64,000 bases of DNA from Selaginella tamariscina (lineage: Eukaryota > Streptophyta > Lycopodiopsida > Selaginellales > Selaginellaceae). A program made the position numbers and the translations under genes. The stretch is from positions 453,945 through 517,944 of the forward strand of contig PUQB01000134.1 of assembly GCA_003024785.1 (NCBI GenBank), in the 5' to 3' direction. The notes beneath the pieces were generated by a model. That model ran no database searches and had not been told where the DNA came from. It worked only from the letters and a program-made list of their open reading frames with translations. Below are positions 1,955-22,564 of the stretch, piece after piece (position 1 is the first letter of the stretch; each line of letters opens with the position of its first letter).

Positions 1955-2017
1955 GATAGAATGGAACAAAGTTAGTACTTACAAGTTCTTAGAGTTCAGA
2001 TTGGAGAGTTCTTCACA

Positions 2018-2592
2018 ATGTCGATAGTTTCCCCTCCAAAGTTCTTTAGCATTCAGTCAGTGACCTTTCCTGGCTACAATCTCACTCAGCGAGGAACTCA
2101 GCTCGTCCTTTCTGCTTCCAACAATGACAATCCTTTTCAGGTCTACCAATCAATGATAAACACTGTTCTAATTGTTAATTCGGTGTTTTGTTCAACTGGC
2201 AGCTGTGGTACAGGGACGAGTCTTGGCAGTTCATACAAGGTGCCTTCGTCTTCATAAATCACGGCTCTAAGATGGCTCTCAAAGCAACAAAGTCTGGAGC
2301 AAAGGTAGTGATCGTGCATTCTCATTTTCTTCTAATCATGTTCTTAATTATGCAGGTTATTTTGGGTCCTTATGATCCTGCTGTAGAGGATGACACTCTA
2401 CTGTGGAACCAGTACAATGATGCTACGAGAAACGAGGTGAAATTATCACCTATACTTCTCAGCAACCAGACACTTGCTCTAGGAATTAATAGTTCTGCGG
2501 CTCCCGATGGCATTCCAGCAATTGTGTCAATTCTGGGATCGTCAACCTCGTCCTGGAAATTTGTCCCCTTTGGTACAAGCGATTACAAGTGA
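2018..2592 (+). CDS. EUL-type (R40-like) ricin-B-like lectin, lectin A, first EUL domain
   Basis: Three exons (2018-2140, 2203-2304, 2356-2592) join in frame across GT-AG introns of 62 and 51 nt and give a protein of about 153 residues, the length of one Euonymus-lectin (EUL) domain. The EUL signature is visible: a PGYNLT start, QLWYRDE after intron 1 (family form QHWYKDE), an INHGSKMALK segment, ILGPYDP, LLWNQYND, and a closing SSWKFVPF (family form RWKIVPY). EUL/R40 proteins are nucleocytoplasmic carbohydrate-binding lectins linked to stress responses; no signal peptide is seen here, consistent with that. The ORF stops at TGA 2590, but a second EUL-like half follows directly, so the gene may once have been, or may still be, two-domain. 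No ribosome-inactivating A-chain is present, so it is not a ricin-type toxin. Confidence 0.8.
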
Positions 2593-2627
2593 TAATCTGT
2601 GTTACTAATATTGTGCTTGAATTTCAG

Positions 2628-3270
2628 TGCCTAATTCCTACAACCTCCAGTGCAGCTGGTTCACCAACAACTTGACTTACAAAACCCTCACACTGACGTG
2701 ACCTACGTCGCTGCAGTGACTCACAACGACGAGAATTCGGTGGTTGGATTTCATCCCAACAACAATACTGGTGACAACATGGTGAGAAGACTTCGGATGA
2801 TTGGTCTAAAATCTAATCACATGTTCAAATCTTACAGATATGGAATCGAATACCTGCTGGTGGTCAGGGAGATACCACATCCTATACATCCTTCATTGTC
2901 ATCAACAAGGGGACTGGATTGGCATTGAAGGGTTCAACCAAGCCTGGTGACAAGGTACTAAACATGACATGTCTCGAATTGCTCGAAACGTAATTAATCC
3001 TGCTTGGCATCTACTAATCAGGTGATTGCGGCTGTGTATGATCCTGTGGATTATGACTTTGTTTGGTCGGAGGATCGTAACCAGAGATCGATCCAAGAGT
3101 ATGTTAGCATCAACCTCTCCAAGGCTGGTGCTACCAATCTTCACTGGACTTTGTCTCCAGATGACCAGTATCAGAATAGTGCATGGTACCACCCCTTGAC
3201 TCTTCTTCCTGGAACTGCTGATGGTGGCTTCCTCGATCGTCAGTCTTGGAAATTTATCCTCCTCAAGTAG
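2628..3270 (+). pseudogene. Lectin A second EUL-like domain, joint with the first domain unclear
   Basis: Three exon-like blocks (2628-2781, 2838-2954, 3022-3270) with GT-AG introns of 56 and 67 nt encode a second EUL-like half: DVTYVAAVTHNDENS, then IWNRIPAGG and FIVINKGTGLALKG, then VIAAVYDPVDYDFVWSEDRN, ending QSWKFILLK and TAG. A 39-nt intron candidate (2589-2627, GT...TTTCAG) would link it to the first domain, but that splice yields an immediate in-frame TAA. Either lectin A is a two-domain protein damaged at the joint, or splicing differs, or the second half is a relic 3' of a functional single-domain lectin. A polyadenylation-like AATAAA lies at 3290. Confidence 0.6.
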
Positions 3271-3470
3271 ATGGCGTTTGAATGGAGAGAATAAACGTTT
3301 GTCATTTAATAAAAGCATATATGTTTGTTTCGAGACACTCGAACACATTTGGAACATATCCTAATTCACGGCTCCTAGACCAACATTTTGGTACGATTTG
3401 TTTTCTAGTTGTTCAGGGGGGTCTTTATAAACTCATATTAAGTTTGTGGCAGGTGCCCCCATTGTCAAGA

Positions 3471-3965: not shown

Positions 3966-4298
3966 CTATTTAAACTTCTTTGGTGCAAAACAGCAACAAA
4001 AGTTTACTGGAGAGGTTTGTGCTTCATTCTTTACTGCAGAATCACGAGATGATTCATGCATGCTACTTGTCCTCCTGCTTGACCTTGAAGAGTCGTGTGC
4101 ATTTGATCGAACCCTATAAACCCTCTCCCTCTTTGGTGCCGCCCGCTGTTGTTGCTTCCGTGATGGTATGCTACCATTGTCAGGGTTGCCATCTTCCTTG
4201 GGCCTGGGCATCGATCGTCCTCCTGAAGGCGCTTCACGAGCATTGAGCAAGCAACATAAACAACTTCCCACATGAACTGCATTGGCTGATTGAGTCAA
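3966..4298 (-). CDS. Hypothetical 110-residue basic, Cys-ended protein divergent from lectin B
   Basis: This ORF is unrecognised. It has a Cys-rich N-terminal block (GSCLCCLLNA), a long Arg/Ser-rich hydrophilic middle without hydrophobic core, and a C-terminal NFCCCFAPKKFK. Clustered cysteines next to basic residues at both ends could be acylation sites of a membrane-anchored peptide; that is inference. It starts 334 bp from the lectin B ATG on the opposite strand, so the two could share a divergent promoter. A homologous but frame-broken stretch precedes lectin A. It could be a chance ORF in a duplicated promoter. Confidence 0.3.
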   Translation of the reverse strand: MTQSANAVHVGSCLCCLLNAREAPSGGRSMPRPKEDGNPDNGSIPSRKQQQRAAPKRERVYRVRSNAHDSSRSSRRTSSMHESSRDSAVKNEAQTSPVNFCCCFAPKKFK

Positions 4299-4582
4299 AA
4301 CTGGAGGGCTGGCCTTTTAGCGTGTTCTAGACGGCCTAATGCAACATTTGAAGCTGGACAAGGTTGATGGAACAATACTCGCTATAAAGTATGCTCGGAC
4401 TATTAAATAATGCATCGTATGCATTTTTCTTTGGTGATTGAGAAAGCCATTAAGAGATTGTCTGTTGTTGAAGCTGAATGAACAAAAATGCTACCACTAG
4501 TAACACTTAGGTAATCGTGCAATAAACACATGTTCTCAGAAAGATAAAATATGTCATTAGTCCACTATAGTCACAGTGTGTG

Positions 4583-4589
4583 TATTTAA
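4583..4589 (+). promoter_or_regulatory. TATA-like box of lectin B
   Basis: TATTTAA lies 43 bp upstream of the ATG at 4632 in the same promoter context as lectin A. Confidence 0.4.
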
Positions 4590-4631
4590 GGATGAGTACG
4601 TACAAGTGAGTTCAGATTGGAGTTCTTCACA

Positions 4632-5302
4632 ATGTCGATAGTTTCCCCTCCAAAGTTCTTTAGCATTCAGTCAGTGACCTTTCCTGGCTACAATCTCACT
4701 CAGCGAGGAACTCAGCTCGTCCTTTCTGCTTCCAACAATGACAATCCTTTTCAGGTCTACCAATCAATGATAAACACTGTTCTAATTGTTAATTCGGTGT
4801 TTTGTTCAACTGGCAGCTGTGGTACAGGGACGAGGCTTGGCAGTTCATACAAGGCGCCTTCGTCTTCATAAATCACGGCTCTAAGATGGCTCTCAAAGCA
4901 ACAAAGTCTGGAGCAAAGGTAGTGATCGTGCATTCTAATTTTCTTCTAATCATGCTCTTAATTATGCAGGTTATTTTGGGTCCTTATGATCCTGCTGTAG
5001 AGGATGACACTCTACTGTGGAACCAGTACAATGATGCTACGAGAAACGAGGTGAAATTATCACCTATACTTCTCAGCAACCAGACACTTGCTCTAGGAAT
5101 TAATAGTTCTGCGGCTCCCGATGGCATTCCAGCAATTGTGTCAATTCTGGGATCGTCAACCTCGTCCTGGAAATTTGTCCCCTTTGGTACAAGCGATTAC
5201 AATTGATAATCTGTGTTACTAATATTGTGCTTGAATTTTCAGTGCCTAATTCCTACAACCTCCAGTGCAACTGGTTCACCAACAACTTGACTTACAAAAC
5301 CC
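4632..5302 (+). pseudogene. Lectin B, 5' half, interrupted by MULE copy 1
   Basis: Exons 4632-4754, 4817-4918 and 4970-5206 reproduce lectin A almost base for base and still encode an intact 153-residue EUL domain ending at TGA 5204. Differences include DESWQF to DEAWQF. The GT of the 39-nt candidate intron after the first domain is TT here (ACAATTGATAA), so it could not be spliced. The second domain is cut at 5302 by the MULE; the remainder resumes at 13614. The first domain alone could still be expressed as a single-domain lectin. Confidence 0.8.
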
Positions 5303-5311
5303 CTCACACTG
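5303..5311. repeat. Target-site duplication, left of MULE copy 1
   Basis: CTCACACTG occurs here and again at 13614-13622, while lectin A has it once (near 2687-2695). A 9-bp duplication is typical of MULE insertion. Confidence 0.9.
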
Positions 5312-5337
5312 GGGTCTCGGCGAAAAGGAGGCTCCGG

Positions 5338-5432
5338 CTCAGGAGGCTTCATATTATTCTAGTATATTCGCGGATATTCTAGGGTTATTCTAGCATATTC
5401 TCAAGAATATTCTAGAATATATAAGTTTTTTT
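5338..5432. repeat. Subterminal GAATATTC array, left end of MULE copy 1
   Basis: Repeated TATTCTAG/GAATATTC units occur here, including GAATATTCTAGAA near 5405. Read as nGAAnnTTCn units these form a heat-shock-element-like array. The opposite end of the element has a better array at 13529-13570. They may alternatively be transposase-binding subterminal repeats. Confidence 0.55.
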
Positions 5433-5498
5433 AATATGCCGACTGGCTTAATATATGCCGACTGGCTTAATAAAACATTATCCTAAACCCTAAACCAT

Positions 5499-8400
5499 TT
5501 ATCCTTGTAGCACCGGTGGGTCATGAACTCTGCTGCAATTCACCAGCAAACGGTGGACCTCCATCTCACTGAGCGATCGCCTTTGTAGAAAATATGTGAC
5601 GTCCGGGTTCAAGCCAAGCACACGGCTATAGACGAAGTACATGTGTACACATGGGCTCTAACTTTTGCTCTTCTGAAATGTAGAACAACTGCATGAAGGA
5701 TAAGTATTAATAGTCACCTTTGCAGAGTCATTTCCTGCCGACACAACGAAAGCCTCCTTCCGTCCTCTAGCTGTCACTTCAACATTTCGCACACAACCTA
5801 AAAACGTCTTGGCCTTGCGGAAATTCTTCTCTTGTTCCTTAGACATTTTTGTTGGAGTCCGGACCATACGTCCTTCGAAAGGTGGAATTGTTGTAGATCC
5901 AGCTCCACGTGGTGGCAATGGTGTTTTGTCCTTCTGACCCTCATCTATTCTTCCTGCCATCCCCTGTAAACCTTCCAGAAACAAAGCCTGCATCCTGTAG
6001 TTCTCTGACCTCCTCACTTGTCAGCTTCGTTTCCTTGAGCACAGGCCAAACTGTTGGTGGTGTTGGAATTCGTGACCGAAGAATTTTGCCGTTTGGCTGT
6101 GTGAAACACCCTGAATCTTTTGGGCAGAACACATCATCTGTTGTACATACTCCTCATTCCCCAAGGCATCAATGTACATTCGTTTTCCATAGAATCCTGG
6201 TGCTGGCACTCTGCTTGGATAACCGATTGGTTTTCCACACAGATCAGTTCCTTCCTGATTCATCCCCAAACACTTAACCTTACTGGATGCTCCGATTCGT
6301 CTGATGACCCACTCTGTTTGAGCAATCTCTCTCTCCGAAAACCTCTTCGAACCTTAACCTCTTTCTCCTGTTGTTTTGGACCACCCGCTCTGTGTACTCT
6401 ACATCATGTCTGTGTGAACGTCGAGCATCAGACTGTTCTGTTCCTGTGACTGTTCTCCTAACAGTTTGCACTCGAACGTTAGTGGTACTCGTGAACTCCG
6501 GGCTGGTCAAGTGTTCCTCGCCTTCCACCAGATTGATAATTGTTGATGGAGATACACTTTTCCCCTCAGAGAGTTTGCGTTGCACTCGTTTCAACAGAGT
6601 TTCCTTCGAAGGCCCTGACCCTGTATACCTCCCTTCTATTGCCGCTTTCACCTTCGCACTCTGCATAACTGCATCGGTGAGGTCTAACATTGTCGCTCCA
6701 GCAGTGGTACTCTTTTGGCCAATCTTGCTCTTCTTGCTCTCGCGTGAATCACTTCAGCATTGTTTGTAGTTGGAACGCTCGCGAGTCCTTCTTCTGTCAT
6801 GTCTCCCAGTTCCGCCATGGAGATGTGGTCCTCATGCCTGATCCACCAAGACAGCCATGTCTTCAAAGCTCGAATGTTTGACGCTCGTCCTTCCCAAAAA
6901 CTCGAGAATTGCCAGTTGTTCTTTCTTAGATTGTTCATTCAGTGCTGCAGGCCAGGCACGAGCAAGCTTCATGTGTTCTTCGCGATGTTCTTCTGCGATC
7001 CATTTCTTTGTCACCTGACGCACGGATTGCATAAAGTGAAACAGACAGCTTCTTTCCCTCCCTTTCATCTTTGCTCCGTTGTTGAATACTTGGCGCAAGG
7101 CTATCCATATCGCTCCAGCCTCATCCGACATGAAACCAGCAAAGTTGACATTCTCCAAACCCTGCTTCTTACAAACCTCTAGCATTGTGTTCAAGAACTT
7201 CAGCACTGCAACATTATCTTCGCGGCACATATCTGCGTAAGCTATAGTCACCATGGATCTGACACTGCAAGAGAGCGTTAGATAACGAAGATTAGAAAGT
7301 GTTATGAAGAGTTTTACAACTTACAATGGGTCATAAAGGTGTATTCCAATTGTCGCCCAGTCTGGTATGCGGTGCGTGTGGTCCAGAACAACCCATTGAT
7401 CATGAAGGTCTCCTCCACTTTGACACCTTCTGATGTACTCAACTCCTGAACCCGGTCCCTCAACTGTCATTTTGAAGATCAGAGGCTGCTCCTCAGCACC
7501 ATGCAGTTCCATCCCTGGAACATGTATGACGTGAATGAAAGGTATTGGCAGCTTTGTCTTCAGCTCCAGAAGACCCTCGTAACCCTCTCTAAAGTGTGTC
7601 TCCTTCTGTCTTGATTGTGTAATCCAGTCCCGAGTCCTAAAGAAAAGGTCACGTCAGTGTGTAGAGATCTAAAAAAAATACCTTCGATGGTTTGTTAGAG
7701 GTTCAAGTTTTGAGAGTAAACCAGTGTACGAGACTTCTCCTTCTTCCTTGAAAAGTTCTTCAAAGATGAGCTCACGCGCGGCTTGAAACTCAATCACTCG
7801 TTGATTGGTTCGCGGACTGCTCTTTACCACGTTGCTGACACTAGATCTGGCTCGCTGAACGTTTGAAGCTGACACTGAGGGGCTGACTGGATGCTGATGA
7901 ACACCTCTGTGAATGAACAACCTTGTAAAAGAAATGTCGTCTGGCAGAATGTAGTACACATAAGCCGGACAAGTGTGCACCAGCAATGGCTCCTCTCCAC
8001 AATGCTTACATTTTATGCCTATTACTTTGCCTGTCTCAGTTGTCTTTGCCTTCTCCACAGCACCCTTGAAGTGACATTCATTTGCTTTCTTCTCAAAAGC
8101 CAAGTAGGGGCAGTAGGATTGATGCATTGGAGATGTCCGACACATGAACTTCGACTGACTCGCGCCGGAACATGCCAGTGTGTTGTGCTCGGGTGTGTCC
8201 AATGGTAGCAGCCATCCTTGCGATTCATCCCCGAGTACTTCTCTGTGCTTTCTGTCTTAGGGGGAAGTTCGAAAATGACATTTCCATTGTATATCTGCGG
8301 TAGTTCAGAGACTCGTTTAACTTCAGACGAACCAATGAGATCCTTCCCTATCCTACATTTGTCTGCTCTTAGAAGACACACCAGCATGGATTCCTCACGC

Positions 8401-8660
8401 TCCTCTGTCCGCAACCTGAACAACGGGCCCTTTGCCGGGCACAATGTGTAAAAGACAAACTGGTTTGATGCATTGCCTTCTGGTAACAACTCCACATCTT
8501 CTCCAGAACTCGCAGAAACTGACATCAATTGAACCACATGTATACTGAACCAACAAGGAATGTTGAAAGCAATGTGAAGATCATGTTCAAACACAAAAGC
8601 ATTTCCATCTTCATCGACTGGGAAATCTTTGTCAATGCCTTCATAGGTAACTCTGGCCAT
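5499..8660 (-). pseudogene. MULE transposase, copy 1 (frameshifted)
   Basis: Three exons on the minus strand (8660-7682, 7636-7325, 7264-5499), with introns of 45 and 60 nt, are shared with copy 2. In order: an N-terminal region beginning MARVTYEGID; a Cys/His zinc-binding region (GCYHWTHPS ... CVGHLQCINPT ... KCKHCGEE), WRKY/FLYWCH-like as in other MULEs; a DDE catalytic core with WVVLDHTHRIPDW, GFMSDEAGAIW followed by the RSCLFHFMQSV helix, and the TTNNAEVIHAR block; and at the C-terminus a SWIM zinc finger (PSCSCSTFQK followed by CVH). Relative to copy 2 there are frame-changing deletions near 8115, near 6895 and near 6705, and a stop inside the SWIM region. It therefore cannot encode a full-length enzyme. 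It is transcribed away from the methyltransferase gene. Confidence 0.8.
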
Positions 8661-9239
8661 GACAACGCAAGGAGAAAGCTCGGTGGTTTAGGAAAGCAAA
8701 GCAAAAGATTAAACACACTTTCCTTACCAAAAAAAAATTACAATCGTTAACAATAAACGTGAATACACGTTTGTATATAATTAATTCTATGCTGCCCAGT
8801 TCACAGTGTTCTTAATGATGTCCTCTCTAGTATCACCGATTTAATTTAATTTCTACCTTTTATGATTTGAAATATCTTCACATTTACCAATTATTCACAT
8901 ATTTTAAAATAAACCCTAAATATTAATGTCACATTTATTCCGTAGGGTTCACTGTTTTCATTGCGGCTAGGGTTTTTTGGTAGATAGGGTTTACTGTTTC
9001 CATTGCGGCTAGGGTTCTTTCAATCTCAGATCTGTTTCCACTGCGGCAGATCCAGAGGGTTTCTTTAATCTCAGATCTCAGAGTTACGGTTTCCACTGCG
9101 GCGCCATCCATTTCGACTCGATTCGTGCAGCGCCCAAGTATAACAATGGAGATTTCTGTGCCGATTTAGATTCTCGGCACCATCCTGCTCAGCCGGCGGC
9201 CACAAGGTATGTGTAATTTCTGTATTTTATGATTTGCTG
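8661..9239. promoter_or_regulatory. Divergent promoter region of MULE copy 1 with telobox cluster
   Basis: Between the two divergent genes, 8905-9075 contains AAACCCTAA and at least three TAGGGTT/TAGGGTTT teloboxes, embedded in a repeated unit that includes TTTCCATTGCGGCTAGGG. Teloboxes are common in plant promoters active in dividing cells. The transposase start codon is at 8660 and the first cassette begins near 9260, so this is the likely core of a bidirectional promoter. Copy 2 has the same arrangement near 18780-19000. Confidence 0.5.
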
Positions 9240-10190
9240 CTCAAAGTATTTCTTTTTCCAGAGATATAGGGTCTTCTTATTTGTGCCGACTGAGAGCACG
9301 GCACCATCCTGGTTCAGTCGGCAAACACAAGGTATCGTCGATTTATTTATTTTTTTCCTTGCGGCTCAAGTATACGTGTCACAATGTTTTTTTTTCAGAG
9401 TTAATGGGTCTTTCCATTTGTGCCGACTGAGAGTGACGGCACCATCCTGGTTCAGTCGGCAAAAACAAGGTATTTTCGATTTGTTTTTTTTTTGCTTTCT
9501 GGCTCAAGTATTCGTATCACAAGGTTTTTTTTTCAGAGTTAATGGGTCTTCCCATTTGTGCCGACTGAGAGTGACGGCACCATCCTAGTTCAGTCGGCAG
9601 CCACAAGGTATGTTCGATATATTTATTTTTTGCTTTCTGGATCATGTATTCGTATCACATTGTTTTTTTTCAGAGTTAATGTGTCTTCTCATTTGTGCCG
9701 ACTGAGAGTGACGGCACCATCCTTCTTCAGTCGGCAGCCACAAGGTATTTTGAATTTGTTTATATTTTGCTTTGCGGCTCAAGTATCCGTATAACAATGT
9801 TTTTTTTCAGAGTTATAGTGTCTTCCCATTTGTGCCGACTGAGAGTGACGGCACCATCCTTCTTCAGTCGGCAGCCACAAGGTATTTTGAATTAGTTTTT
9901 TTTTTTTTGCGTCTCAAGTATTTCTTTTAAAACAGTTAATGGGTCTTCCCATTTGTGCCGTCTGAGAGGGACGGCACCATCCTATCTCAGTCGGCACCAT
10001 TATCTCTTCTGTGCCGTCTGACAGAGTCGGCACAAACTATCTCAGTCGGCAGGTTTTTTCTTCTACATCTCTCTGCCGACTGAGAGGGTCGGCAGCATCT
10101 AGCTTGAGTCGGCAGCCACAAGGTTAGTCATCTTTGTTTGTTTTTTTATTTTGTCTCATCAATTGACTTGTGTGTTTACTTTCCAGAGTT
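9240..10190 (+). repeat. Tandem array of exon-like cassettes in the 5' leader of the ParB-methyltransferase gene
   Basis: At least five full units with spacings of about 124-138 bp (core GTGCCGACTGAGAG near 9284, 9420, 9558, 9695 and 9830, with a diverged core near 9955) are followed by degenerate units to 10120. Each unit reads T-run + CAG, then an exon-like block of about 85 bp (AGTTAATGGGTC ... CAGTCGGCA ... CACAAG), then GTA. Every block thus has a 3'-splice-site-like start and a 5'-splice-site-like end. Inside it, TGCCGACTGAG and CTCAGTCGGCA-type arms can pair. The last acceptor (TTTCCAG at 10182-10188) precedes the ATG at 10197. The short ORFs through the array are repetitive and not considered genes. 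Confidence 0.7.
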
Positions 10191-10196
10191 TACAAA

Positions 10197-13100
10197 ATGG
10201 TGAGAGCTTCAAAACGTCTACTAGAGACTGCGCCTGATGAAGAGCCACGGGAAGAGAAGAGGATATCGAAGCAGAAGCGAGGCAAGAGAGGAGAACCATC
10301 TAATGTAGCAAAGGAGGATCCTCCAGTGACTCAGTCTGGAGTAGTAGCAGTTGAGCAAGAACAGCCTCCACCAACAATCACAGATTTCCCGGAGAGCTCG
10401 TCGCAGTTGCCTCCTTCATCCGCTGAGGTTGCAGTCCTGAACGAGCAAGTGCAGATGACAGAGGCAGCTGAAGCTAGCGAGGACGACTTGGAGGAGGCAG
10501 TCAGCAAAAAGAGAGGCCGCGGGAAAGCTGATTCAAAAGGCAAGAAGGCGAAGAGCGATAAGGAGCCGAAGGAGTTATACAGCATACCGGCGAGCCTGCA
10601 TTTGGAGAGCTCAGCAAACCTGCTCGACAAAATTACTATCAAGGGACTTGGTGATCCTCCTGATGTGCCCATCTGCAGAATACATTCCAACGAGGTGGTT
10701 CGACGAGTGAACCCAGGGGACTTGGACAGGCTGGTGTCATCGTTGAAGAAGGCTGGTTATCTACGCAACACGGCCTTGTTCATTCTGTCCATCGGAGATC
10801 GACTCACTGCTGAGGAGCTATCGGAGCTGTCGAAGGACACGATTCAGTACGAGCAGCACCGGTCTTTCGAGCAAGCTCTTACTCAGCCGGAGTACAAACA
10901 GTGGGCTTCAAGGCTCTCAAACAGGAAGTTTAGCTGCTGGGACGGGAACCATAGGCTACAGGCTTTGCAGAAGCTGTACCGAGAGGATGCAGAGGACAAC
11001 CAGCGATGGGCTATTCGCGTTCGATCGAGTTTCATCTCCACGGAGAACCTCGACATTCTTCAACTGGTTTCGATGTTCCAATCGATTAACATGTGAGTAT
11101 TTTCTTTTCTTTTTGTTAAGAGTTTAGACTTACAGTTTCGTTGAACAGATCTTCAGCAACATCTGTGGAAACAACGCTACCACATATTCTCCTCGCTGTA
11201 AAGGCGGTCTGCACTAGTACAGAAGGAACTCAGAAAATCCTCGAGTCACTCACGGAGGTTGATCGTCTTGAGGTGCGGAAGTGGAAGGAGAGTTCATCAG
11301 GAAAGACGGCTTGGCATCCTCTTCCGAACCTGATCTGCGCAAAGATCTTTTCAAGGTAACCTCCGATTTAATTTATAGGAAAGAAATTTTTAACTTGTTC
11401 TATGTGCAGAACGAGATCGACGATGATCTCGACAGAGCAGTCACCAGTGCTAAGGGCAATTCACAGGTTGAGGTGAACCTAAGCAGCTAGTGTACAAGAA
11501 GCATGACAAGCGTATGCACAAGTTCCTCTCCATCATAGACCCAGACTTGGGGGAGGAGTGGTTCCAGAAGGTGACAAACATCTCTCATAAGCAGTGTCGC
11601 TGGATGGGCATTGAGAAGCTGTATGCGATGTCAAGGGCGAAGATTCCAAACATGCTGCGACTCCGATACCTGAACAAGCTCACCCGTCTCGAATCCAAGG
11701 CAGAACAACAGACACTTGGGCTACCGGGCATGCAGGACAAAGAGTGGATCAAGTGGTTCACCTTGGACTTATATTGGAAGGCTGTGCGCGAGGAAGCCAT
11801 TCAGATCCTTAAGGGGTTGCGAGAGGATGGTGAAGAAGTTGGAACGGATGTCGACTTCATGAGCTGGTTTGACGAGATGAGAATTCGGAGCAAGTGCCTG
11901 GTCTTTCAGCCCTTCCATGACTGCATACGGTTCACTTATTCGATGGAGCCGAATGAGTTTCTGGAGCGTGAGGAATCTGCGCGTCGGATGATATGGAGGT
12001 AAGCTTTCAATCCAGCATTGCTACTGTCTGACTTTGTGTTGCAGGTTCATACTGGCGAAGCAAATGACACCGTCCCATACGATGAAGCTGTGGACAGATC
12101 ATACAAGCGAGCCTCACATGTGGTCGAAGAGCAGAGGAGCTCTAACACCGTTCGAACGGGAGCATGTTCCATTCTGGCTCGACTGTCCGTCGCAACAGCC
12201 ACCAGCTTGGGAGAGCACACTATTCGACATGCACGCCAATGATCTACCAGCGATTGTTTGGGAGCCAGAAGAAGTAGAGGCTATCAAGAAGAGCAAGATG
12301 AAGAAGACGGTGCGGAAGACAACTACACCTGCAAAGGGATCGGGAGCGGGACCAAGCTCTTCTACAGCACCTCCGCCGGCATTCGACTTTACAATCAATG
12401 AGGTACAGCCACTTGTAGCTAGTTTGGACATCAAGGACGACCTGATGACCTTCATCCCGACCCTGGCTGCATCCCGTGGATCCTACGACCTAGCTGTGTG
12501 CGACATGGAGGAGATGAGCAGGTCTTTCTTCGAGCCAGGTGCTTCCCAGACAGAGGTGTACACCAAGCTCCGAGAACAGGTTGACAGACTACATACGGTT
12601 GAGTCACAAACGTTGTTCCAGGAAGTGGTAGGTGAATACGGCTTCAACCTCATCATCCTCGACTTGCCCAATGAGCTTGTATATGGAGGTGCTAGCATCA
12701 ACAAGGACATTGTGCAGCTAGATCCGGTGAAGTTTGAGGAGGCCTTGCAGTTCAGTGGAATGCACTTGGCAGCGAGTGGTTTCATGGTCGTCTTCGCGAG
12801 TTCTCCTTCTGTTTCGGCGGTGATTCAGGCGGCTGCAGTAATCAACTTGGAGGTTGCAGGGACTTACAGCGTCTACCGTGCACGAGGCTGGGGATACCGT
12901 GACAAAATTAAGGTAAGCTAGCTATTCAAGTTCAAGTTTAACTTGGTCTATGTGGCAGGATAACTTGTTAGTTCTCTTGGTGCTGCAAAGCTCTGAGAAG
13001 AAGTCGAAGAGGCCAAACCCTCTGGCGTTGACGAACACGATCCTCGTCGACACTGCCGACCGTTATCAGGAGGCTTGGTAAGGAAGTGCTTTGCTATGTT

Positions 13101-13421
13101 TATCCTAATGGAAGATTGTGCAGGATTATGATTCAACCGAAGAGTGTTCGACTCATGCAGCTTTTGATCGAGCGTCTCAGTAGACCTGGCGACCTAGTCT
13201 GGGATATTGGTTCCGGAACCGGGTCATCATTGTTAGCTGCCGTCGAGCTCGGAAGGAATATTATAGGAACCGAGAAGAGTTTCGAACTCTCTAGGTTGGC
13301 AACAAACAAGCTTGCAGAGAACATTAGACCAGAAGAGTTACCTACTCAAACACCTCCACGTCCAAGCGTAACTGGTGGTTCGAGAACTGCAGCTTTACTT
13401 AAGATGAAGAAGAAACTTTAG
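10197..13421 (+). pseudogene. ParB-like domain + amino-DNA-methyltransferase protein, MULE cargo, copy 1
   Basis: Six exons (10197-11092, 11149-11355, 11410-11998, 12045-12912, 12959-13077, 13124-13421) with GT-AG introns of about 46-57 nt, giving roughly 990 residues. Order: Lys/Arg-rich tail with NLS-like KKRGRGK; acidic/Ser region; ParB/sulfiredoxin-like domain (NEVVRRVNPGDLDRLVSSLKKAG and, at residues about 249-253, DGNHR followed by LQAL); a long unrecognised middle; a second basic linker; then a Rossmann methyltransferase region with motif IV-like LIILDLPNE at 12652-12678 and, in exon 6, PKSVRLMQLLIERLSRPGD and motif I DIGSGTGSSLLAA at 13203-13240. The order IV before I is that of beta-class N6-adenine/N4-cytosine methyltransferases. 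Exon 3 carries two frameshifts relative to copy 2 (near 11410-11430 and near 11480), so this copy looks disabled, though most exons are open. Its role in the element is unknown; modifying element DNA or regulating transposition is inference. Confidence 0.7.
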
Positions 13422-13499
13422 CTAATGTATATTGAGTAATAAATTAAGCTAATATAAAAAAAAATAAAAAAATACAACAGTTTTAATAGAATTCTTTTT

Positions 13500-13575
13500 T
13501 GCCGACTGAGGCCAATACTGCCGACCAGAAAGAATATTCCAAAATATTCTAGAATATTCTTGAATATTCGAGCCC
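13500..13575. repeat. Subterminal array at right end of MULE copy 1 (GCCGAC motifs and GAATATTC units)
   Basis: TTGCCGACTGAGG and TGCCGACC are followed by GAATATTC units that run in register: AAATATTCTAGAATATTC then TTGAATATTC. GAA/TTC alternation every 5 bp matches the plant heat-shock element pattern. The mirrored set in copy 2 is at 14578-14645. Confidence 0.6.
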
Positions 13576-13613
13576 AGGCCTCCTGGGCCCCAAGCCTCCA
13601 AAATGGCGCACTC

Positions 13614-13622
13614 CTCACACTG
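13614..13622. repeat. Target-site duplication, right of MULE copy 1
   Basis: CTCACACTG, identical to 5303-5311; lectin B reading resumes immediately after it. Confidence 0.9.
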
Positions 13623-14176
13623 ACGTGACTTACGTCGCTGCAGTGACTCACAACGACGAGAATTCGGTGGTTGGATTTCATCCCAGCAACAATACTGGTG
13701 ACAACATGGTGAGAAGACTTCGGATGATTGGTCTAAAATCTAATCATGGAATCGAATACCTGCTGGTGGTCAGGAAGATACCACATCCTATACATCCTTC
13801 ATTGTCATCAACAAGGGGACTGGATTGGCATTGAAGGGTTCAACCAAGCCTGGTGACAAGGTACTAAACATGACATGTCTCGAATTGCTCGAAACATAAT
13901 TAATCCTGCTTGGCATCTACTAATCAGGTGATTGCGGCTGTGTATGATCCTGTGGATTATGACTTTGTTTGGTCAGAGGATCGTAACCAGAGATCGATCC
14001 AAGAGTATGTTAGCATCAACCTCTCCAAGGCTGGTGCTACCAATCTTCACTGGACTTTGTCTCCAGACGACCAGTATCAGAATGGTGCATGGTACCACCC
14101 CTTGACTCTTCTTCTTGGAACTGCTGATGGTGGCTTCCTCGATCGTCAGTCTTGGAAGTTTATCCTCCTCAAGTAA
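13614..14176 (+). pseudogene. Lectin B, 3' half (second EUL-like domain) after the MULE
   Basis: Blocks 13614-13708, about 13747-13860 and 13928-14176 correspond to lectin A exons 4-6. The intron after 13708 has lost about 21 bp, including its TTACAG acceptor (lectin A 2828-2838 region), so the exon junction can no longer be spliced normally. Together with the 8.3-kb insertion this makes the second domain of lectin B non-functional. The last exon remains open with few substitutions and ends in TAA. Confidence 0.8.
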
Positions 14177-14424
14177 ATGGCGTTTGAATGGAGAGAATAA
14201 ACGTTTGTCATTTGGGTTTTTACGGTTTTCAAGTTGTTGTAGTAACTAATGTTAAATTACAAACGTATTTGTGTTCTACATTTTCACGATTGACCCGAAT
14301 GGTGTAATGCAGAACACAAAATCAATGGTTCGTAGAGGATGTTCCAAAATTGTTCTAATGTCTCGACGCAAGCATATACGTTTTATTCAAAATGACACTT
14401 GTATTGTCGGCACAATTTCAACCC
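14177..14424. other. 3' flank of lectin B up to MULE copy 2
   Basis: The flank begins like that of lectin A (GGCGTTTGAATGGAGAGAATAAACG) and then diverges. No gene or other element was recognised. Confidence 0.5.
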
Positions 14425-14433
14425 CGGCCAAAT
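14425..14433. repeat. Target-site duplication, left of MULE copy 2
   Basis: CGGCCAAAT occurs here and at 22556-22564, flanking copy 2 exactly. Confidence 0.9.
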
Positions 14434-14577
14434 GAGTGCCGCCATTTTGGACACAAGCAAATCATAAGAGCACCTCACCAATATCAAGTCAGCATCCACT
14501 TGATGAGTCACTAGCACCATGTTTTCGACGCCAGCGCTTTAAGGACGATTTGGCTTGGGGTCCAGGAGGCCTGGGCT

Positions 14578-14650
14578 CGAATATTCAAGAATATTCTAGA
14601 ATGTTTTGGAATATTCTTTTTGGTCGGCAGTATTGGCCTCAATCGGCAAA
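14578..14650. repeat. Subterminal GAATATTC/GCCGAC array, left end of MULE copy 2
   Basis: GAATATTCAAGAATATTC, then TAGAATG and GGAATATTC, followed by GGTCGGCAG. This is the counterpart of 13500-13575 in copy 1. The other end (22440-22520) has a weaker GAAT/ATTCTAG array. Confidence 0.55.
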
Positions 14651-14724
14651 AAAAAATTCTAGTAAAACTGTTGTATTTTTATCTTTTTCATTTTATATTA
14701 GCTTATTACTCAAATATACATTAG

Positions 14725-17700
14725 CTAAAGTTTCTTCTTCATCTTGAGTAAAGCTGCAGTTCTCGAACCACTAGTTACGCTTAGACATAGAGGTGTTTGA
14801 GTAGGTAATTCCTCTGGTCTAATGTTCTCTGCGAGCTTGTTTGTTGCCAACCTAGAGAGTTCGAAACTCTTCTCGGTTCCTATAATATTCCTTCCGAGCT
14901 CGACGGCAGCTAACAACGATGACCCGGTTCCGGAACCAATATCCCAGACTAGATCGCCATGTCTACTGAGACGCTCGATCAAAAGCTGCATGAGTCGAAC
15001 ACTCTTCGGTTGAATCATCATCCTACACAAACTTCCATTAGAATAAACAAAGCAAAGTACTTCCTTACCAAGCCTCCTGATAACGGTCGGCGGTGTCGAC
15101 GAGGATCATGTTCGTCAACGCCAGAGGGTTTGGCCTCTTCGACTTCTTCTCCGAGCTTTGCAGCACCAAGAGAACTAACAAGTTATCCTGCCACATAGAC
15201 CAAGTTAAACTTGAACTTGAATAGCTAGCTTACCTTAATTTTGTCACGGTATCCCCAGCCTCGTGCACGGTAGATGCTGTAAGTCCCTGCAACCTCCAAG
15301 TTGATTACTGCAGCCGCCTAAATCACCGCCGAAACAGAAGGAGAACTCACGAAGACGACCATGAAACCACTCGCTGCCAAGTGCATTCCACTGAACTGCA
15401 AGGCCTCCTCAAACTTCACTAGATCTAGCTGCACAATGTCCTTGTTATGCTAGCACCTCCATATACAAGCTCATTGGGCAAGTCGAGGATGATGAGGTTG
15501 AAGCCGTATTCACCTACCACTTCCTAGAACACCGTTTGTGACTCAACCGTATGTAGTCTGTCAACCTGTTGTCAGAGCTTGGTGTACACCTCTGTTTGGG
15601 AAGCACCCGGCTCGAAGAAAGACTTGCTCATCTCCTCCATGTCACACACAGCTAGGTCGTAGGATCCACAGGATGCAGCCAGGGTCGGGATGAAGGTCAT
15701 CAGGTCGTCCTTGATGTCCAAATTAGCTACAAGTGGCTGCACCTCATTGATTGTAAAGTCGAATGCCGCGGAGGTGCTGTAGAAGAGCTTGGTCCCGCTC
15801 CGATCCCTTTGCAAGTGTAGTTGTCTTCCACACCGTCTTCTTCACCTTGCTCTTCTTGATAGCCTCTACTTCGTCCGGCTCCCAAACAATCGCTGGTAGA
15901 TCATTGCCGTGCACGTCGAATAGTGAGCTCTCCCAAGCTGGTGGCTGTTGCGACGGATAGTCGAGCCAGAATGGAACATGCTCCCGTTCGAACGGTGTTA
16001 GAGCTCTTCTGCTCTTCGACCACATGTGAGGCTCACTTGTATGATCTGTCCACAGCTTCATCATATGGGACGGTGTCATTTGCTTCGCCAGTATGAACTT
16101 GTAACACAAAGTCAGACAGTAGCAATGCTGGAATGAAAGCTTACCTCCATATCATTCAACGCGCAGACTCCTCATGCTCTAGAAACTCATTCGGCTCCAT
16201 CGAATAAGTGAACCGTATGCAGTCATGGAAGGGCTGAAAGACCAAGCACTTGCTCCGAGTTCTCATCTCGTCAAACCAGCTCATGAAGTCGACATCCGTT
16301 CCAACTTCTTCACCATCTTCTCGCAACCCCTTAAGGATCTAAATGGCTTCCTCGCGCACAGCCTTCCAATATAAGTCCAAGGTGAACCACTTGATCCACT
16401 CTTTGTCTTGCATGCCTGGTAGCCCAAGTGTCTGTTGTTCTGCCTTAGATTCGAGACGGGTGAGCTTGTTCAAGTATCAGAGTCGCAGCATGTTTGGAAT
16501 CTTCACCTTTGACATCGCATACAGCTTCTCAATGCCCATCTAGCGACACTGCTTATGAGAGATGTTCGTCACCTTCTGGAACCACTCCTCCCCAACTCTG
16601 GGTCTATGATGGAGAGGAACTTGTGCATACGCTTGTCATGCTTCTTGTACACTAGCTGTTTTAGGTTCAGCTCAACTTGTGGATTGCCCTTAGCACTGGT
16701 GACTGCTTTGTCGAGATCATCATCGATCGATTCTGTTCTGCACATAGAATAAGTTAAAAAAAAAATTTCCTATAAATTAAATCGGAGGTTACCTTGAAAA
16801 GGATCTTTGCGCAGATCAGGTTCGGAAGAGGATGTCAAGCCGTCTTTCCTGCTGAACTCTCCTTCCACTTCCGCACCTCAAGACAATCAAGCTCCGTGAG
16901 TGACTCAAGGATTTCTGAGTTCCTTCTGTACTACTGCAGACCGCCTTTATAGCGAGGAGAATATGTGGTAGCGTTGTTTCCACAGATGTTGCTGAAGATC
17001 TGTTCAACGAAACTGTAAGTCTAAACTCTTAACAAAAAGAAAAGAAAATACTCACATGTTAATCGATTGGAACATCGAAACCAGTTGAAGAATGTCGAGG
17101 TTCTCCATGGAGATGAAACTCGATCGAACGCGAATACCCATCGCTGGTTGTCCTCTGCATCCTCCCGGTACAGCTTCTGCAAAGCCTGTAGCCTATGGTT
17201 CTCGTCCTAGCAACTGAACTTCCGGTTTGAGAGCCTTGAAGCCCACTGTTTGTACTCCGGCTGAGTAAGAGCTTGCTCGAAAGACCGGTGCTGCTCGTAC
17301 TGAATCGTGTCCTTCGACAACTCCGATAGCTCCTCAGCAGTGAGTCAATCTCTGATGGACAAAATGAACAAGGCCGTGTTGCATAGATAACCAGCCTTCT
17401 TCAACAATGACAGCATGTCCAAGTCCCTTGGGTTCACTCGTCGAACCACCTCGTTCGAATGTATTCTACAGATGGGCACATCAGGAGGATCACCAAGTCC
17501 CTTAACAATGATTTTGTCTAGCAGGTTCGCTGAGCTCTCCAAATGCAGGCTAGTCGGTATGCTGTATAACTCCTTCGGCTCCTTATCGCTCTTCGCCTTC
17601 TTGCCTTTTGGATCAGCTTTCCCGCGGCCTCTCTTTTTGCTCACTGCCTCCTCCAAGTCGTCCTCGCTAGCTTCAACTGCCTCTGTCATCTGCACTTGCT

Positions 17701-17947
17701 CGTTCAGGACTGCAACCTCAGTGGATGAAGGAGGCAACTGCGACGAGCTCTCCAGGAAATCTGTGATGATTGGTGGAGGCTGCTCCTGCTCAACTGGTAC
17801 TACTCCAAACTGAGTCATTGGAGGATCCTCCTTTGCTACATTAGATGGTTCTCCTCTCTTGCCTCACTTCTGCTTCGATATCCTCTTCTCTTCCCGTGGC
17901 TCTTCATCAGGCACAGTCTCTAGTAGACGTTTTGAAGCTCTCACCAT
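14725..17947 (-). pseudogene. ParB-like domain + amino-DNA-methyltransferase protein, MULE cargo, copy 2
   Basis: Same exon layout as copy 1 on the minus strand, start at 17947, stop at 14725-14727. Exon 3 is in frame here across the region that is frameshifted in copy 1 (SRTESIDDDLDKAVTS follows the splice), so this copy shows the original frame there. It carries several stops absent from copy 1, mostly CGA to TGA or TGG to TAG (for example at 17864-17866, at the Trp codon before the DGNHR motif where DGN has also become DEN, and near 17346). Motif IV-like LDLPNE and motif I DIGSGTGSSLLAA are both preserved. Disabled by stops, but useful for rebuilding exon boundaries by comparison. Confidence 0.7.
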
Positions 17948-18700
17948 TTTGTAAACTCTGGAAAGCAAACACACAAGTCAATTGATTAGGAGACAAAATA
18001 AAAAAACAAACAAAGATGACTAACCTTGTGGCTGCCGACTCAAGCTAGATGGTGCCGACCCTCTCAGTCGGCAGAGAGATGTAGAAGAACAAATCCTGCC
18101 GACTGAGATAGTTGGTGCCAACCCTCTCAGACGGCACTGAAGAGATAATGGTGCCGACTGAGATAGGATGGTGCCGTCCCTCTCAGACGGCACAAATGGG
18201 AAGACCCATTAACTAGTTTAAAAGAAATACTTGAGCCGCAAAGAAACAAATAAACTAATTCAAAATACCTTGTGGCTGCTGACTGAAGAAGGATGGTGCC
18301 GTCACTCTCAGTCGGCACAAATGGGAAGACACATTAACTCTGAAAAAAAATTGTGATACGAATACTTGAGCCGCAAAGAAAAAAATAAACTAATTCAAAA
18401 TACCTTGTGGCTGCCGACTGAAGAAGGATGGTGCCGTCACTCTCAGTCGGCACAAATGGGGAGACCCTATATCTCTGAAAAAAGAATATTATGACACGGA
18501 TACTTGAGTCGCAAAAAAAAAATAAATAAATCAAAAATACCTTGTGGCTGCCGACTGAACCAGGATGGTGCCGTCGCTCTCAGTCGGCACAAATGGGAAG
18601 ACCCTATATCTTAGAAAAAAAATACTTTGAGCCGCAAATCATAAAATACAGAAATTACACATACCTTGTGGCCGCCGACTGAGCAGGATGGTGCCGACAA
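17948..18700 (-). repeat. Exon-like cassette array, MULE copy 2
   Basis: Mirror of 9240-10190. Cores (CTCTCAGTCGGCACAAATGGG) recur near 18301, 18441 and 18575, with diverged cores near 18060 and 18180. There are fewer full units than in copy 1, so cassette number differs between the two insertions. Confidence 0.65.
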
Positions 18701-19208
18701 TCTAAATTGGCATAGAAATCTCCATTGATATACTTGGGCGCTGCACGAATCGAGACGAATGGATGGCGCCGCAATGGAAACCGTAACTCTGAGATCTGAG
18801 ATTGAAAAAACCTCAGGATCTGCCGCAGTGAAAACAGATCTGAGATTGAAAAAACCCTAGCCACAGTGGAAACAATAAACCCTATCTACCAAAAAACCCT
18901 AGCCGCAATGAAAACAGTGAACCCTATGGAATAAATATGACATTAATATTTAGGGTTTATTTTAAAATATGTGAATAATTAGTAAATGTGAAGATATTTC
19001 AAATCATAAAAGGTAGTAATTAAATTAAATCGGTGATATTAGAGAGGACATCATTAGGAACACTATGAGCTGGGCAACGTAGTATTAATTATATACAAAC
19101 GTGTATTCACGTTTATTATCAACGATTATAAATTTTTTTGGCGAGGGAAAGTGTGTTTAATCTTTTGCTTTGCTTTCCTAAACCAACGAGCTTTCTCCTT
19201 GCGTTGTC
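18701..19208. promoter_or_regulatory. Divergent promoter region of MULE copy 2
   Basis: Contains AAACCCTAGCC-type teloboxes at about 18850-18905 and AAACCCTA/TAGGGTTT near 18890-18960, as in copy 1. It lies between the cassette array and the transposase ATG at 19209. Confidence 0.5.
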
Positions 19209-22200
19209 ATGGCCAGAGTTACCTATGAAGGCATTGACAAGAGATTTCCCAGTTGATGAAGATGGAAATGCTTTTGTGTTTGAACATGATCTTCACATTG
19301 CTTTCAACATTCCTTGTTGTTTTAGTATACATGTGGTTCAATTGATGTCAGTTTCTGCGAGTTCTGGAGAAGATGTGGAGTTGTTACCAGAAGGCAACGC
19401 ATCAAACCAGTTTGTCTTTTACACATCGTGCCCGGCAAAGGGCCCGTTGTTCAGGTTGCAGACAGAGGAGCGTGAGGAATCCATGCTGGTGTGTCTTCTA
19501 AGAGCAGACAATTGTAGGATAGGGAAGGATCTCATTGGTTCGTCTGAAGTTAAACGGTCTCTGAACTACCGCAGATATACAATGGAAATGTCATTTACGA
19601 ACTTCCCCCAAAGAAAGAAAGCACAGAGAAGTACTTGGGATGAATCGCAAGGATGGCTGCTACCATTGGACACACCCGAGCATAACACACTGGCATGTTT
19701 CGGTGCGAGTCAGTCGAAGTTCATGTGTTGGACATCTCAAATGCATCAATCCTACCTTCCCCTACTTGGCTTTTGAGAAGAAGCCAAATGAATGTCACTT
19801 CAAGGGTGCTGTGGAGAAGGCAAAGACAACTCAGACATGCAAAGTAATAGGCATGAAATGTAAGAATTGTGGAGAGGAGCCATTGCTGGTGCACACTTGT
19901 CCGGCTTATGTGTACTACATTCTGCCAGACGACATTTCTTTTACAAGGTTGTTCATTCACAGAGGTGTTCATCAGCATCCAGTCAGCCCCTCAGTGTCAG
20001 CTTCAAACGTTCAACGTGCCAGATCTAGTGTCAGCAACGTGGTAAAGAGTAGTCCGCGAACCAATCAATGAGTGATTGAGTTTCAAGCTGCGCGTGAGCT
20101 CATCTTTGAAGAACTTTTCAAGGAAGAAGGAGAAGTCTCGTACATTGGTTTACTCTCAAAACTTGAACCTCTAACAAACCATCGAAGGTGTTTTTCTTTA
20201 GATCTCTAAACACTGACGTGACCTTTTCTTTAGGACTCGCGACTGGATTACACAATCAAGACAGAAGGAGACACACTTTAGAGAGGGTTACGAGGGTCTT
20301 CTGGAGATGAAGAAAAGTTGCCAACCTTTCATTCACGTCATACATGTTCCAAGGATGGAACTGCATGGTGCTGAGGAGCAGCCTCTGAAATGACAGTTGA
20401 GGGACCGGGTTCAGGAGTTGAGTACCATCAGAAGGTGTCAAAGTGGAGGAGACCTTCATGATCAATGGGTTGTTCTGGACCACACGCACCGCATACCAGA
20501 CTGGGCGACAATTGGAATACACCTTTATGACCCATTGTAAGTTGTAAAACTCTTCATAACACTTTCTAATCTTCGTTATCTAACACTCTCTTGCAGTGTC
20601 AGATCCATGGTGACTATAGCTTACGCAGATATGTGCCGCGAAGATAATGTTGCAGTGCTGAAGTTCTTGAACACAATGCTAGAGGTTTGTAAGAAACAGG
20701 GTTTGGAGAATGTCAACTTTGCTGGTTTCATGTCGGATGAGGCTGGAGCGATATGGATAGCCTTGCGCCAAGTATTCAACAACGGAGCAAAGATGAAAGG
20801 GAGGGAAAGAAGCTGTCTGTTTCACTTTATGCAATCCGTGCGTCAGGTGACAAAGAAATGGATCGCAGAAGAATATCGCGAAGAACACATGAAGCTTGCT
20901 CGTGCCTGGCCTGCAGCACTGAATGAACAATCTAAGAAAGAACAACTGGCAATTCTCGAGTCTTTTTGGGAAGGACGAGCGTCAAACATTCGAGCTTTGA
21001 AGACATGGCTGTCTTGGTGGATCAGGCATGAGGACCACATCTCAATGGCGGAACTGGGAGACATGACAGAAGAAGGACTCGCGAGCGTTCCAACTACAAA
21101 CAATGCTGAAGTGATTCATGCGAGAGCAAGAAGAGCAAGATTGGCCAAAAGAGTACCACTGCTGGAGGCGACAATGTTAGACCTCACCGATGCAGTTATG
21201 CAGAGTGCGAAGGTGAAAGCGGCAATAGAAGGGAGGTATACAGGGTAGGGCCTTCGAAGGAAACTCTGTTGAAACGAGTGCAACGCAAACTCTCTGAGGG
21301 GAAAAGTGTATCTCCATCAACAATTATCAATCTGGTGGAAGGCGAGGAACACTTGACCAGCCCGGAGTTCACGAGTACCACTAACGTTCGAGTGCAAACT
21401 GTTAGGAGAACAGTCACAGAACAGAACAGTCTGATGCTCGACGTTCACACAGACATGATAGAGTACACAGAGCGGGTGGTCCAAAACAACAAGAGAAAGA
21501 GGTTAAGGTTCAAAGAGGTTTTGGAGAGAGAGATTGCTCAAACAGAGTGGGCCATCAGACGAATCGGAGCATCCTATAAGGTTAAGTGTTTGGGGATGAA
21601 TCAGGAAGGAACTGCTCTGTGTGGAAAACCAATCGGTTATCCAAGCAGAGTGCCAGCACCAGGATTCTATGGAAAACGAATGTACATTGATGCCTTGGGG
21701 AATGAGGAGTATGTACAACAGATGATGTGGTTCTGCCCAAAAGATTCAGGGTGTTTCACCGGCCAAACGGAAAAATTCTTCAGTCACGAATTCCAACATC
21801 ACCAACGGTTTGGCCTGTGCTCAAGGAAACGAAGCTGACAAGTGAGGAGGTCAGAGAACTACAGGATGCAGGCTTTGTTCTGGAAGGTTTACAGGGGATG
21901 GCAGGAAGAGTAGATGAGGGTCAGAAGGACAAAACACCATCGCCACCACGTGGAGCTGGATCTACAACAATTCCACCTTTCGAAGGACGTATGGTCCGGA
22001 CTCCAACAAAAATGTCTAAGGAACAAGAGAAGAATTTCTGTAAGGCCAAGACGTTTTTAGGTATTGTTGTGTGCAAAATGTTGAAGTGACAGCTAGAGGA
22101 CGGAAGGAGGCTTTCGTTGTGTCGGCAGGAAATGACTCTACAAAGGTGACTATTATACTTATCCTATATGCAGTTGTTCTACCTTTCAGAAGAGCAAAAG

Positions 22201-22359
22201 TTGGAGCCCATGTGTACACATGTACTTCGTTTACAGCCGTGTGCTTGGCTTGAACCCGGACGTCACATATTTTCTACAAAGGCGATCGGTGAGATGGAGG
22301 TCCACCGTTTGCTGGTGAATTGCAGCAGAGTTCATGACCCATCGGTGCTACAAGGATAA
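19209..22359 (+). pseudogene. MULE transposase, copy 2 (frameshifted, stop-containing)
   Basis: Exons 19209-20187, 20234-20536 and 20597-22359. Frame changes relative to copy 1 occur near 19240 (one base gained), near 19558 (one lost) and near 21246 (one lost); CGA to TGA gives a stop at 20068-20070. Where copy 1 is broken, this copy is open: the zinc region (HWTHPSITHWHV ... CINPTFPYLAFEKK, with a Cys to Phe change) and the whole DDE core from MVTIAYADMC through TTNNAEVIHAR to MLDLTDAVMQ (213-residue ORF at 20607-21248). The SWIM region near 22170-22225 is frame-shifted. Between them the two copies cover the full family protein; neither encodes it. Confidence 0.8.
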
Positions 22360-22555
22360 ATGGTTTAGGGTTTAGGATAATGCTTTATTAAGCCATCGGC
22401 ATATATTAAGCCAGTCGGCAGATATTAAAAAAACTTATATATTATAGAATATTCTTGAGAATTCTAGAATATGCTAGAATACCCTAGAATAATCCCCGAA
22501 TATACTAGAATAATATGAAGCCTCCTGAGCCGGAGCCTCGTTTTCGCCGAGACCC

Positions 22556-22564
22556 CGGCCAAAT
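22556..22564. repeat. Target-site duplication, right of MULE copy 2
   Basis: CGGCCAAAT, identical to 14425-14433. Confidence 0.9.

Follow-up and report, generated by a model that had tools for sequence, protein, structure and literature searches.

Two insertions of one Mutator-like element

The window analysed here is a stretch of 64,000 nucleotides from Selaginella tamariscina (assembly GCA_003024785.1, contig PUQB01000134.1, positions 453,945 to 517,944 of the forward strand). Comparison of the window with itself shows the same Mutator-like element (MULE) twice, in opposite orientations. Copy 1 occupies 5312..13613 (8302 bp, + strand) and copy 2 occupies 14434..22555 (8122 bp, inverted, - strand), with 96.3% identity over aligned columns (7686/7983). 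In both copies, read in element orientation, a transposase gene runs leftward and a six-exon cargo gene runs rightward, diverging from a central region. The C-terminal region of the cargo protein is related to N6_N4-type DNA methyltransferases.

Each copy is flanked by a perfect target site duplication (TSD) of 9 bp, a hallmark of MULEs, in which it measures 8-11 bp. The duplication is CTCACACTG for copy 1 (5303..5311 and 13614..13622) and CGGCCAAAT for copy 2 (14425..14433 and 22556..22564). Because the two duplications differ, and because the gene into which copy 1 inserted has an uninterrupted paralogue that supplies the empty site (1992..3307, + strand, 98.6% and 95.0% identical to the two flanks in the self-comparison), the insertions are independent. 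The boundaries of copy 1 follow from this empty site and the TSD, those of copy 2 from the self-comparison and the TSD. Copy 1 begins with GGGTCTCGGCG and ends with GCGCACTC. Its terminal inverted repeats (TIRs) are degenerate, as seen from GGGTCTCGGCG against GAGTGCGCC/GAGTGTCGCC, and local alignment of the element ends found no long TIR.

The transposase gene of copy 1 (5640..8660, - strand) has several frame breaks, and that of copy 2 (19190..22240, + strand) includes a contiguous stretch of 235 amino acids at 20541-21248; the ends of both genes are approximate. D/D/E-type motifs are recognizable by eye, and the segments VVLDHTH, FMSDEAGAI, CLFHFMQSVR and TTNNAEVIHAR are ones that we take to fit the MULE transposase pattern. 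No Pfam model matched the transposase core at E up to 10. The C-terminal SWIM zinc finger, a domain common among MULE transposases, scores 21.7 bits to PF04434 against a cut-off of 19.6, in a piece of copy 1 with one in-frame stop read as X. Together, the 9-bp TSDs and the SWIM transposase bear out the MULE identity proposed in the first-pass annotation, which was made from the window sequence alone.

The cargo gene

The cargo gene of copy 1 lies on the + strand. Exon 1 (10197..11092) encodes a basic N-terminus and a conserved domain with the motif DGNHR (10941-10955), ParB-like by motif only. Exon 2 (11149..11355) and exon 3 (11410..11998) each show a 1-bp deletion relative to copy 2, near the end of exon 2 and near 11482 in exon 3, so that the frame of copy 1 is broken there, a defect that the first-pass annotation does not mention. 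Exon 4 (12045..12912) has DLPN at the position of methyltransferase motif IV (12661-12672), exon 5 covers 12959..13077, and exon 6 (13124..13421) contains both the PF01555 match and the S-adenosylmethionine (SAM)-binding motif I, DIGSGTG, at 13203-13223. The five introns, of 46-56 bp, all have GT-AG borders. The cargo gene of copy 2 (14725..17947, - strand) is decayed, with 10-11 in-frame stops plus indels. The first-pass annotation had placed the gene at 10197-13421, with six exons and divergent from the transposase; these coordinates, and the layout in both insertions, were confirmed. A check of the genome for intact copies, which that annotation had proposed, found two of 13 gap-free fetched copies with all 992 codons open and GT-AG introns; the six-exon model is therefore right, and intact genomic copies exist. 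Some of the 1-bp breaks could be assembly base errors rather than real.

The cargo C-terminus matches PF01555 (N6_N4-type DNA methyltransferase) at 36.5 bits, above the cut-off of 26.7, in the SAM-binding half of the profile (positions 164-219 of 221); the same region of a second family, family B (see below), scores 40.2 bits. A PHROG DNA methyltransferase matches the region at 3.7e-11, solved enzymes match it weakly (MboIIA, 5e-4), and NCBIfam matches to it fall far under their cut-offs. Alignment by hhalign to two small phage-enzyme profiles gave 97.0% and 98.0%, where 20 column shuffles of the first profile reached a maximum of 2.03%. A chance motif match was rejected on the PF01555 score and the conservation between families. 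Along the gene DGNHR is followed by DLPN and then by DIGSGTG, which puts the motif IV position N-terminal to motif I. The beta-class amino-DNA-methyltransferase named in the first-pass annotation thus stands as to SAM-binding region and motif order; at motif IV, with DLPN, it does not, and activity is not established.

Motif IV of known amino-methyltransferases has the form [DNS]PP[YFW]. Five phage enzymes have D(I/L/P)PY at this place; the two window copies share DLPN, and family B has FDLPNG. One paper names the variants SPPY, DPPY, NPPY and DPPW (PMC8885841). Judged from these sequences, DLPN is conserved, not decayed, and its conservation across two families points to a non-catalytic or altered active site; because the aromatic residue is absent and the motif is kept that way, catalysis is uncertain. 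It is somewhat unlikely, in our estimate, that the protein is an active N6-adenine or N4-cytosine DNA methyltransferase, which in the reading of the first-pass annotation would put a bacterial-type mark on the element for excision control or silencing evasion. Such an enzyme would agree with a SAM-binding region that passes the Pfam cut-off and is conserved between families, with the motif order, and with bdelloid N4CMT, which by the available text shows such marks to be workable in eukaryotes (PMC8885841). The DLPN of both window copies and of family B, where the phage enzymes have D(I/L/P)PY, argues against it; in N4CMT, the change of SPPY to APPA abolishes activity, according to the same part of that source (PMC8885841).

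The DGNHR domain follows the pattern DVPICRI...LKKAGYLRNTALFIL...CWDGNHRL..LQKLY...WAIRVRS, with a GxHR-type motif after a helix-turn-strand, a likeness that we take to be to ParB. DGNHR is invariant in three aligned rows from the two families, between which the N-terminal domain is well conserved. Searches for ParB or sulfiredoxin gave no significant match in Pfam, PHROGs, NCBIfam or PDB sequences, even with the 57%-identical sister family. One weak match to ddrB-ParB (E 0.063, under the cut-off) came from a 46-amino-acid family-A piece and was not repeated with the family-B piece, and AlphaFold on exon 1 alone, run as a single sequence, was uninformative (mean pLDDT 32). The ParB-like domain of the first-pass annotation is accordingly not established: it rests on motif order.

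Occurrence across the genome

Searches were run against the 300.7 Mb assembly (1391 contigs), where the element family is high-copy. Exon 6 as a query returned 1284 candidate places, and the best 150 were scored. No internal stop occurs in 147 of these 150, including one place, C1235, with a run of N, and about 111 have the score of copy 1. The 492-amino-acid open frame at C1235 was considered as an intronless copy and rejected for its run of N. PF01555 as a query returned 739 candidate places; all of the best 150 score above the cut-off, most of them like the second family.

Twenty of the 150 exon 6 places, hand-picked down the list, were sampled for their surroundings, leaving 19 after L015, the run of N at C1235, was dropped. 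At least 0.84 of the transposase stretch is present in 15 of these 19 informative regions; two of the remaining four have assembly gaps and two do not. Both element ends were located in 14 of the 19 regions, with a perfect 9-bp TSD in eight, one mismatch in one, two mismatches in two and no recognizable TSD in three. This scoring tolerates end shifts of up to 3 bases, and one of the eight perfect duplications, TATATATAT, is low-complexity.

The transposase as a query returned 1752 candidate places, of which the best 150 were scored. For the family of the window copies, family A, exon 6 is among the matches listed, in the right orientation and 5.1-7.0 kb off, for 38 of the first 75 places; for family B it is among the matches listed for 18 of all 25 places on the list. 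Ten of the 37 unpaired family-A places were checked, and the predicted cargo spot holds cargo sequence in eight. These figures suggest, as an estimate, that about 90% of family-A transposases have a cargo gene at the expected place. Co-occurrence from the cargo side and from the transposase side bears out the claim that the gene is integral to the element. The same annotation had named, as a finding that would count against it, a lack of the gene in most family members; what was found is the reverse, at roughly the proportion just given.

A second family and purifying selection

Six of the 150 PF01555 places were fetched. Four are family-A-like (L039, L040, L041 and L044, the last with a perfect TSD as well), and two, L042 and L043, represent family B. 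L043 is a 7743-bp family B element with a perfect TSD, CGCCTTTAA, and the same two divergent genes in the same place and orientation. Cargo identity between families A and B is 0.50-0.72 by part. Over the four parts tested, from exons 1, 3, 4 and 6, the proportion of synonymous differences (pS) is 0.79-0.87 and that of nonsynonymous differences (pN) is 0.20-0.34. With synonymous sites saturated and nonsynonymous change low, the cargo gene has been under long purifying selection.

The changes between the two window copies were compared with a null built from the observed mutation spectrum. For the cargo gene, 71.9 nonsynonymous changes are expected and 58 are seen (P 0.003); for synonymous changes the numbers are 34.8 expected and 45 seen (P 0.02). 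For the transposase gene, 20.4 nonsynonymous changes are expected and 17 are seen (P 0.14), with 9.3 expected and 14 seen among the synonymous ones (P 0.045). Counting-method dN/dS for the window copies (cargo 0.36, transposase 0.34) was set aside, since much of it reflects C>T bias, and the claim of selection is therefore carried by the comparison of families A and B.

These results bear on whether the cargo is a captured host gene fragment, as in Pack-MULEs, with no function in the element. Gene capture is frequent in MULEs, and the cargo frame is broken in 11 of the 13 gap-free copies, as such a fragment would have it. Against it stand the saturated synonymous and low nonsynonymous divergence between families, the same place and orientation in both, and the cargo gene estimated for some nine in ten family-A transposases. 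We regard capture as very improbable, and passive capture was rejected on the divergence pattern and the co-occurrence with transposase.

On its reverse strand at 1599-9037, L042 is a near-perfect palindrome (98.2% across 7475 aligned columns), in which two halves of family-B cargo stand head to head on either side of the array. No transposase match and no TSD were found at L042. It is a natural cargo-only derivative.

A motif shared by the intergenic array and the element ends

In the window, 0.93 occurrences of the 8-bp motif TGCCGACT are expected and 28 are present, all of them inside the elements, 18 in copy 1 and 10 in copy 2. The intergenic array of copy 1 (9253..10116) consists of a 137-bp tandem repeat (9253-9922) plus further units and includes eight palindromes of the form TGCCGACTGA-N20/21-TCAGTCGGCA, five exact and three with one mismatch in one arm. 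Two subterminal motifs lie at the left end of copy 1 (5437..5463, + strand) and one at the right end (13500..13507, + strand); the right end of copy 2 has no exact TGCCGACT. The family B element L043 has nine occurrences against 0.15 expected, seven intergenic and one near each end. The positions correspond in the two families although the DNA there aligns only in fragments. Fifteen other family-A elements have 6-19 occurrences each, the lowest two being elements with assembly gaps.

The presence of TGCCGACT near both ends in both families would suit a transposition accessory protein like that of mudrB, for which the motif would be a binding site in strand transfer or excision, with no epigenetic role. 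Maize mudrB, a second open reading frame, is apparently required for integration in the available part of a MULE survey (PMC6446971). However, the array accounts for most occurrences: 15 of the 18 in copy 1 and 7 of the 9 in L043 lie there rather than at the ends. We know of no mechanism that links a SAM domain to strand transfer, and consider an accessory role of this kind rather unlikely.

The palindromes are read here as DNA sites; they may also have a role in the 5' untranslated region (5' UTR). The 137-bp units within 9157-10196 resemble 5' UTR exons, being bordered by AG/GT and containing a palindrome able to form a hairpin, and are possibly tandem noncoding exons. As RNA hairpins, three array units fold only slightly better than shuffles (z -1.98, -2.68 and -1.47).

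Arrays of GAAnnTTCnnGAA / TTCnnGAAnnTTC (of the form GAATATTCTAGAATATTC) also lie at element ends, at 5405-5417, 13547-13569 and 14579-14601, with seven of nine window matches, and family B ends carry similar GAATATTC repeats. The GAATATTCTAGAATATTC arrays match what we presume to be heat-shock elements; they could alternatively be transposase sites.

Probable traces of host silencing

Cytosines of copy 1 are matched by T in copy 2 at 50/630 CG, 53/788 CHG and 42/2291 CHH sites. The excess at CG and CHG sites together over CHH (103/1418 against 42/2291, P 4e-16) is directional, the reverse comparison being unbiased (21/1261 against 38/2364, P 0.89). Judged by this excess, plant-type cytosine methylation probably acted on copy 2 for a long time; copy 1 would be younger or less methylated.

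The two copies also form one large inverted repeat (5312-22555), with converging cargo genes and a spacer of 820 bp. The maize Mu killer locus is arranged in a similar way, and hairpin RNA directed at the family could arise from such a layout.

Divergence between the copies is patchy, at 1.0-1.5% in part of the transposase (6142-7800) and 3.1-7.3% elsewhere in the element. Gene conversion or recombination between the copies is possible from this unevenness.

Relation to known systems

Second genes in MULEs and methyltransferases in retroelements are already known; the TGCCGACT motif, in an array between the genes and near both ends, is a new observation of the present analysis. VANDAL elements, with the VANC protein (as in Arabidopsis Hiun), are like the present element in being MULEs with degenerate TIRs, an extra gene and host silencing by cytosine methylation (PMC5735166, PMC10398659). 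They also carry a short motif in tandem noncoding arrays, with copy number differing between elements (PMC5735166). VANC, a protein encoded by these MULEs, recognizes tandem motifs in noncoding DNA and takes silencing marks away (PMC5735166, PMC10398659). Unlike here, no methyltransferase domain is named for VANC in the available text, the comparison being one of descriptions (PMC5735166, PMC10398659), and the VANDAL motif YAGTATTAY lies in one orientation, whereas TGCCGACT lies in palindromes and its binding is predicted. By analogy, VANC is the closest working model.

Other systems share single features. DIRS elements with Dam-like enzymes, and dinoflagellate and charophyte retrotransposons with Dnmt, encode relatives of DNA methyltransferases (PMC5890265); they are retroelements with Dam-like or C5 enzymes, whereas the present element is a cut-and-paste DNA transposon with an N6_N4-type domain in beta order. 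Bdelloid N4CMT and a Marchantia enzyme that makes N4-methylcytosine (4mC) are bacterial-type amino-methyltransferase domains in eukaryotes, yet these are host genes, N4CMT having SPPY, and the present gene is element-borne with DLPN (PMC8885841). Bacterial and phage ParB-methylase fusions such as Bce_0392 may have the same order, ParB-like and then methyltransferase; compared by description, they differ from a gene whose ParB part is putative and which has a long middle region and eukaryotic introns (PMC5512222). MuDR with mudrB, Mutyl with mutB and the KIU/Ulp1 MULEs have second genes, whose proteins are of other kinds by their descriptions (PMC6446971, PMC13317346). The main text of the MULE survey of Dupeyron et al. 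(2019), as available, has no word beginning with methyl (PMC6446971). No MULE with an N6_N4-type gene was found in the open-access literature, a scope that leaves subscription papers and Repbase outside.

Against 5.8 billion protein sequences, none of the 8000 scored for cargo residues 120-992 matched with E up to 1, the methyltransferase part gave one weak match (E 0.12) among 229 candidates, and the transposase gave none among 800. Three scans of viral contigs found no relative. Translated searches returned general methyltransferase similarity only, among phages (406 records, E up to 1) and plasmids (2867 records, E up to 0.1), with no place covering 80% of the query; the ParB-like part had one chance-level place in phages (E 5). 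Since no external relative is close enough, no origin or phylogeny is proposed.

Other features of the window

The host gene split by copy 1 is a tandem duplicate, with one member at 1992-3307 and the other, broken by the insertion, at 4608-5311 and 13613-14213; a Pfam search with the main part of its translation gave nothing at E up to 0.1. Nested remnants of long terminal repeat retroelements, with reading frames resembling reverse transcriptase and integrase by eye, occupy 42000-56250. No RNA family in the window reaches its gathering threshold.

A proposed role for the cargo protein

The two genes are found together at numerous genomic sites and in each of two old families, the cargo has long been constrained, TGCCGACT occupies matching places in both families, and the cargo has SAM-binding homology. 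On this basis we give about even credence to a MULE lineage with two long-kept genes, in which the cargo protein would be a DNA-binding regulator of its own element built on an amino-methyltransferase fold. The cargo protein, or less likely the transposase, would be held at the array and the ends through predicted binding to TGCCGACT. The SAM-binding domain may then serve to mark the element; should DLPN be non-catalytic, it would act instead as a structural or SAM-sensing module. The most likely job, by analogy with VANC in VANDAL MULEs, would be to keep the shared promoter region and the ends open against host CG/CHG silencing.

Several observations weigh against such a regulator. The binder of TGCCGACT, whether cargo protein or transposase, is a prediction from sequence, and as the ParB-like part has no profile support, the DNA-binding part of the cargo protein is only putative. 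DLPN lacks the aromatic residue of motif IV. Of two low-threshold hhalign alignments, one places YDLAVCDMEEM at motif IV and the other places DLPN on DIPY, and default runs stop short of this stretch, so that DLPN is identified as motif IV by position and pattern only. The cargo frame is broken in most of the gap-free copies, as given above. With mutation bias taken into account, the signal of selection between the window copies is weak, and constraint is mixed with decay: cargo stops are not depleted (10 against 6.3 expected), and the methyltransferase part alone has 15 nonsynonymous changes against 18.6 (P 0.11). Any anti-silencing must also be incomplete, because copy 2 was evidently methylated.

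A bolder form of the proposal, which we think quite unlikely, is a self-marking transposon in hundreds of copies, whose sequence-targeted amino-methyltransferase, its active site recast as DLPN, would bind palindromic TGCCGACT arrays and write a mark other than 5-methylcytosine that blocks CG/CHG silencing.

If the regulator reading is true, this is a cut-and-paste element of plants with a long-conserved gene of amino-methyltransferase fold, linked to an array of cis-motifs that lends itself to direct testing. Beside VANC, the element would be a further example of a transposon that controls its chromatin itself, through a domain whose enzymes make N6-methyladenine or 4mC in bacteria. The genome has intact cargo copies, and the two old families would be natural controls for co-evolution of motif and protein.

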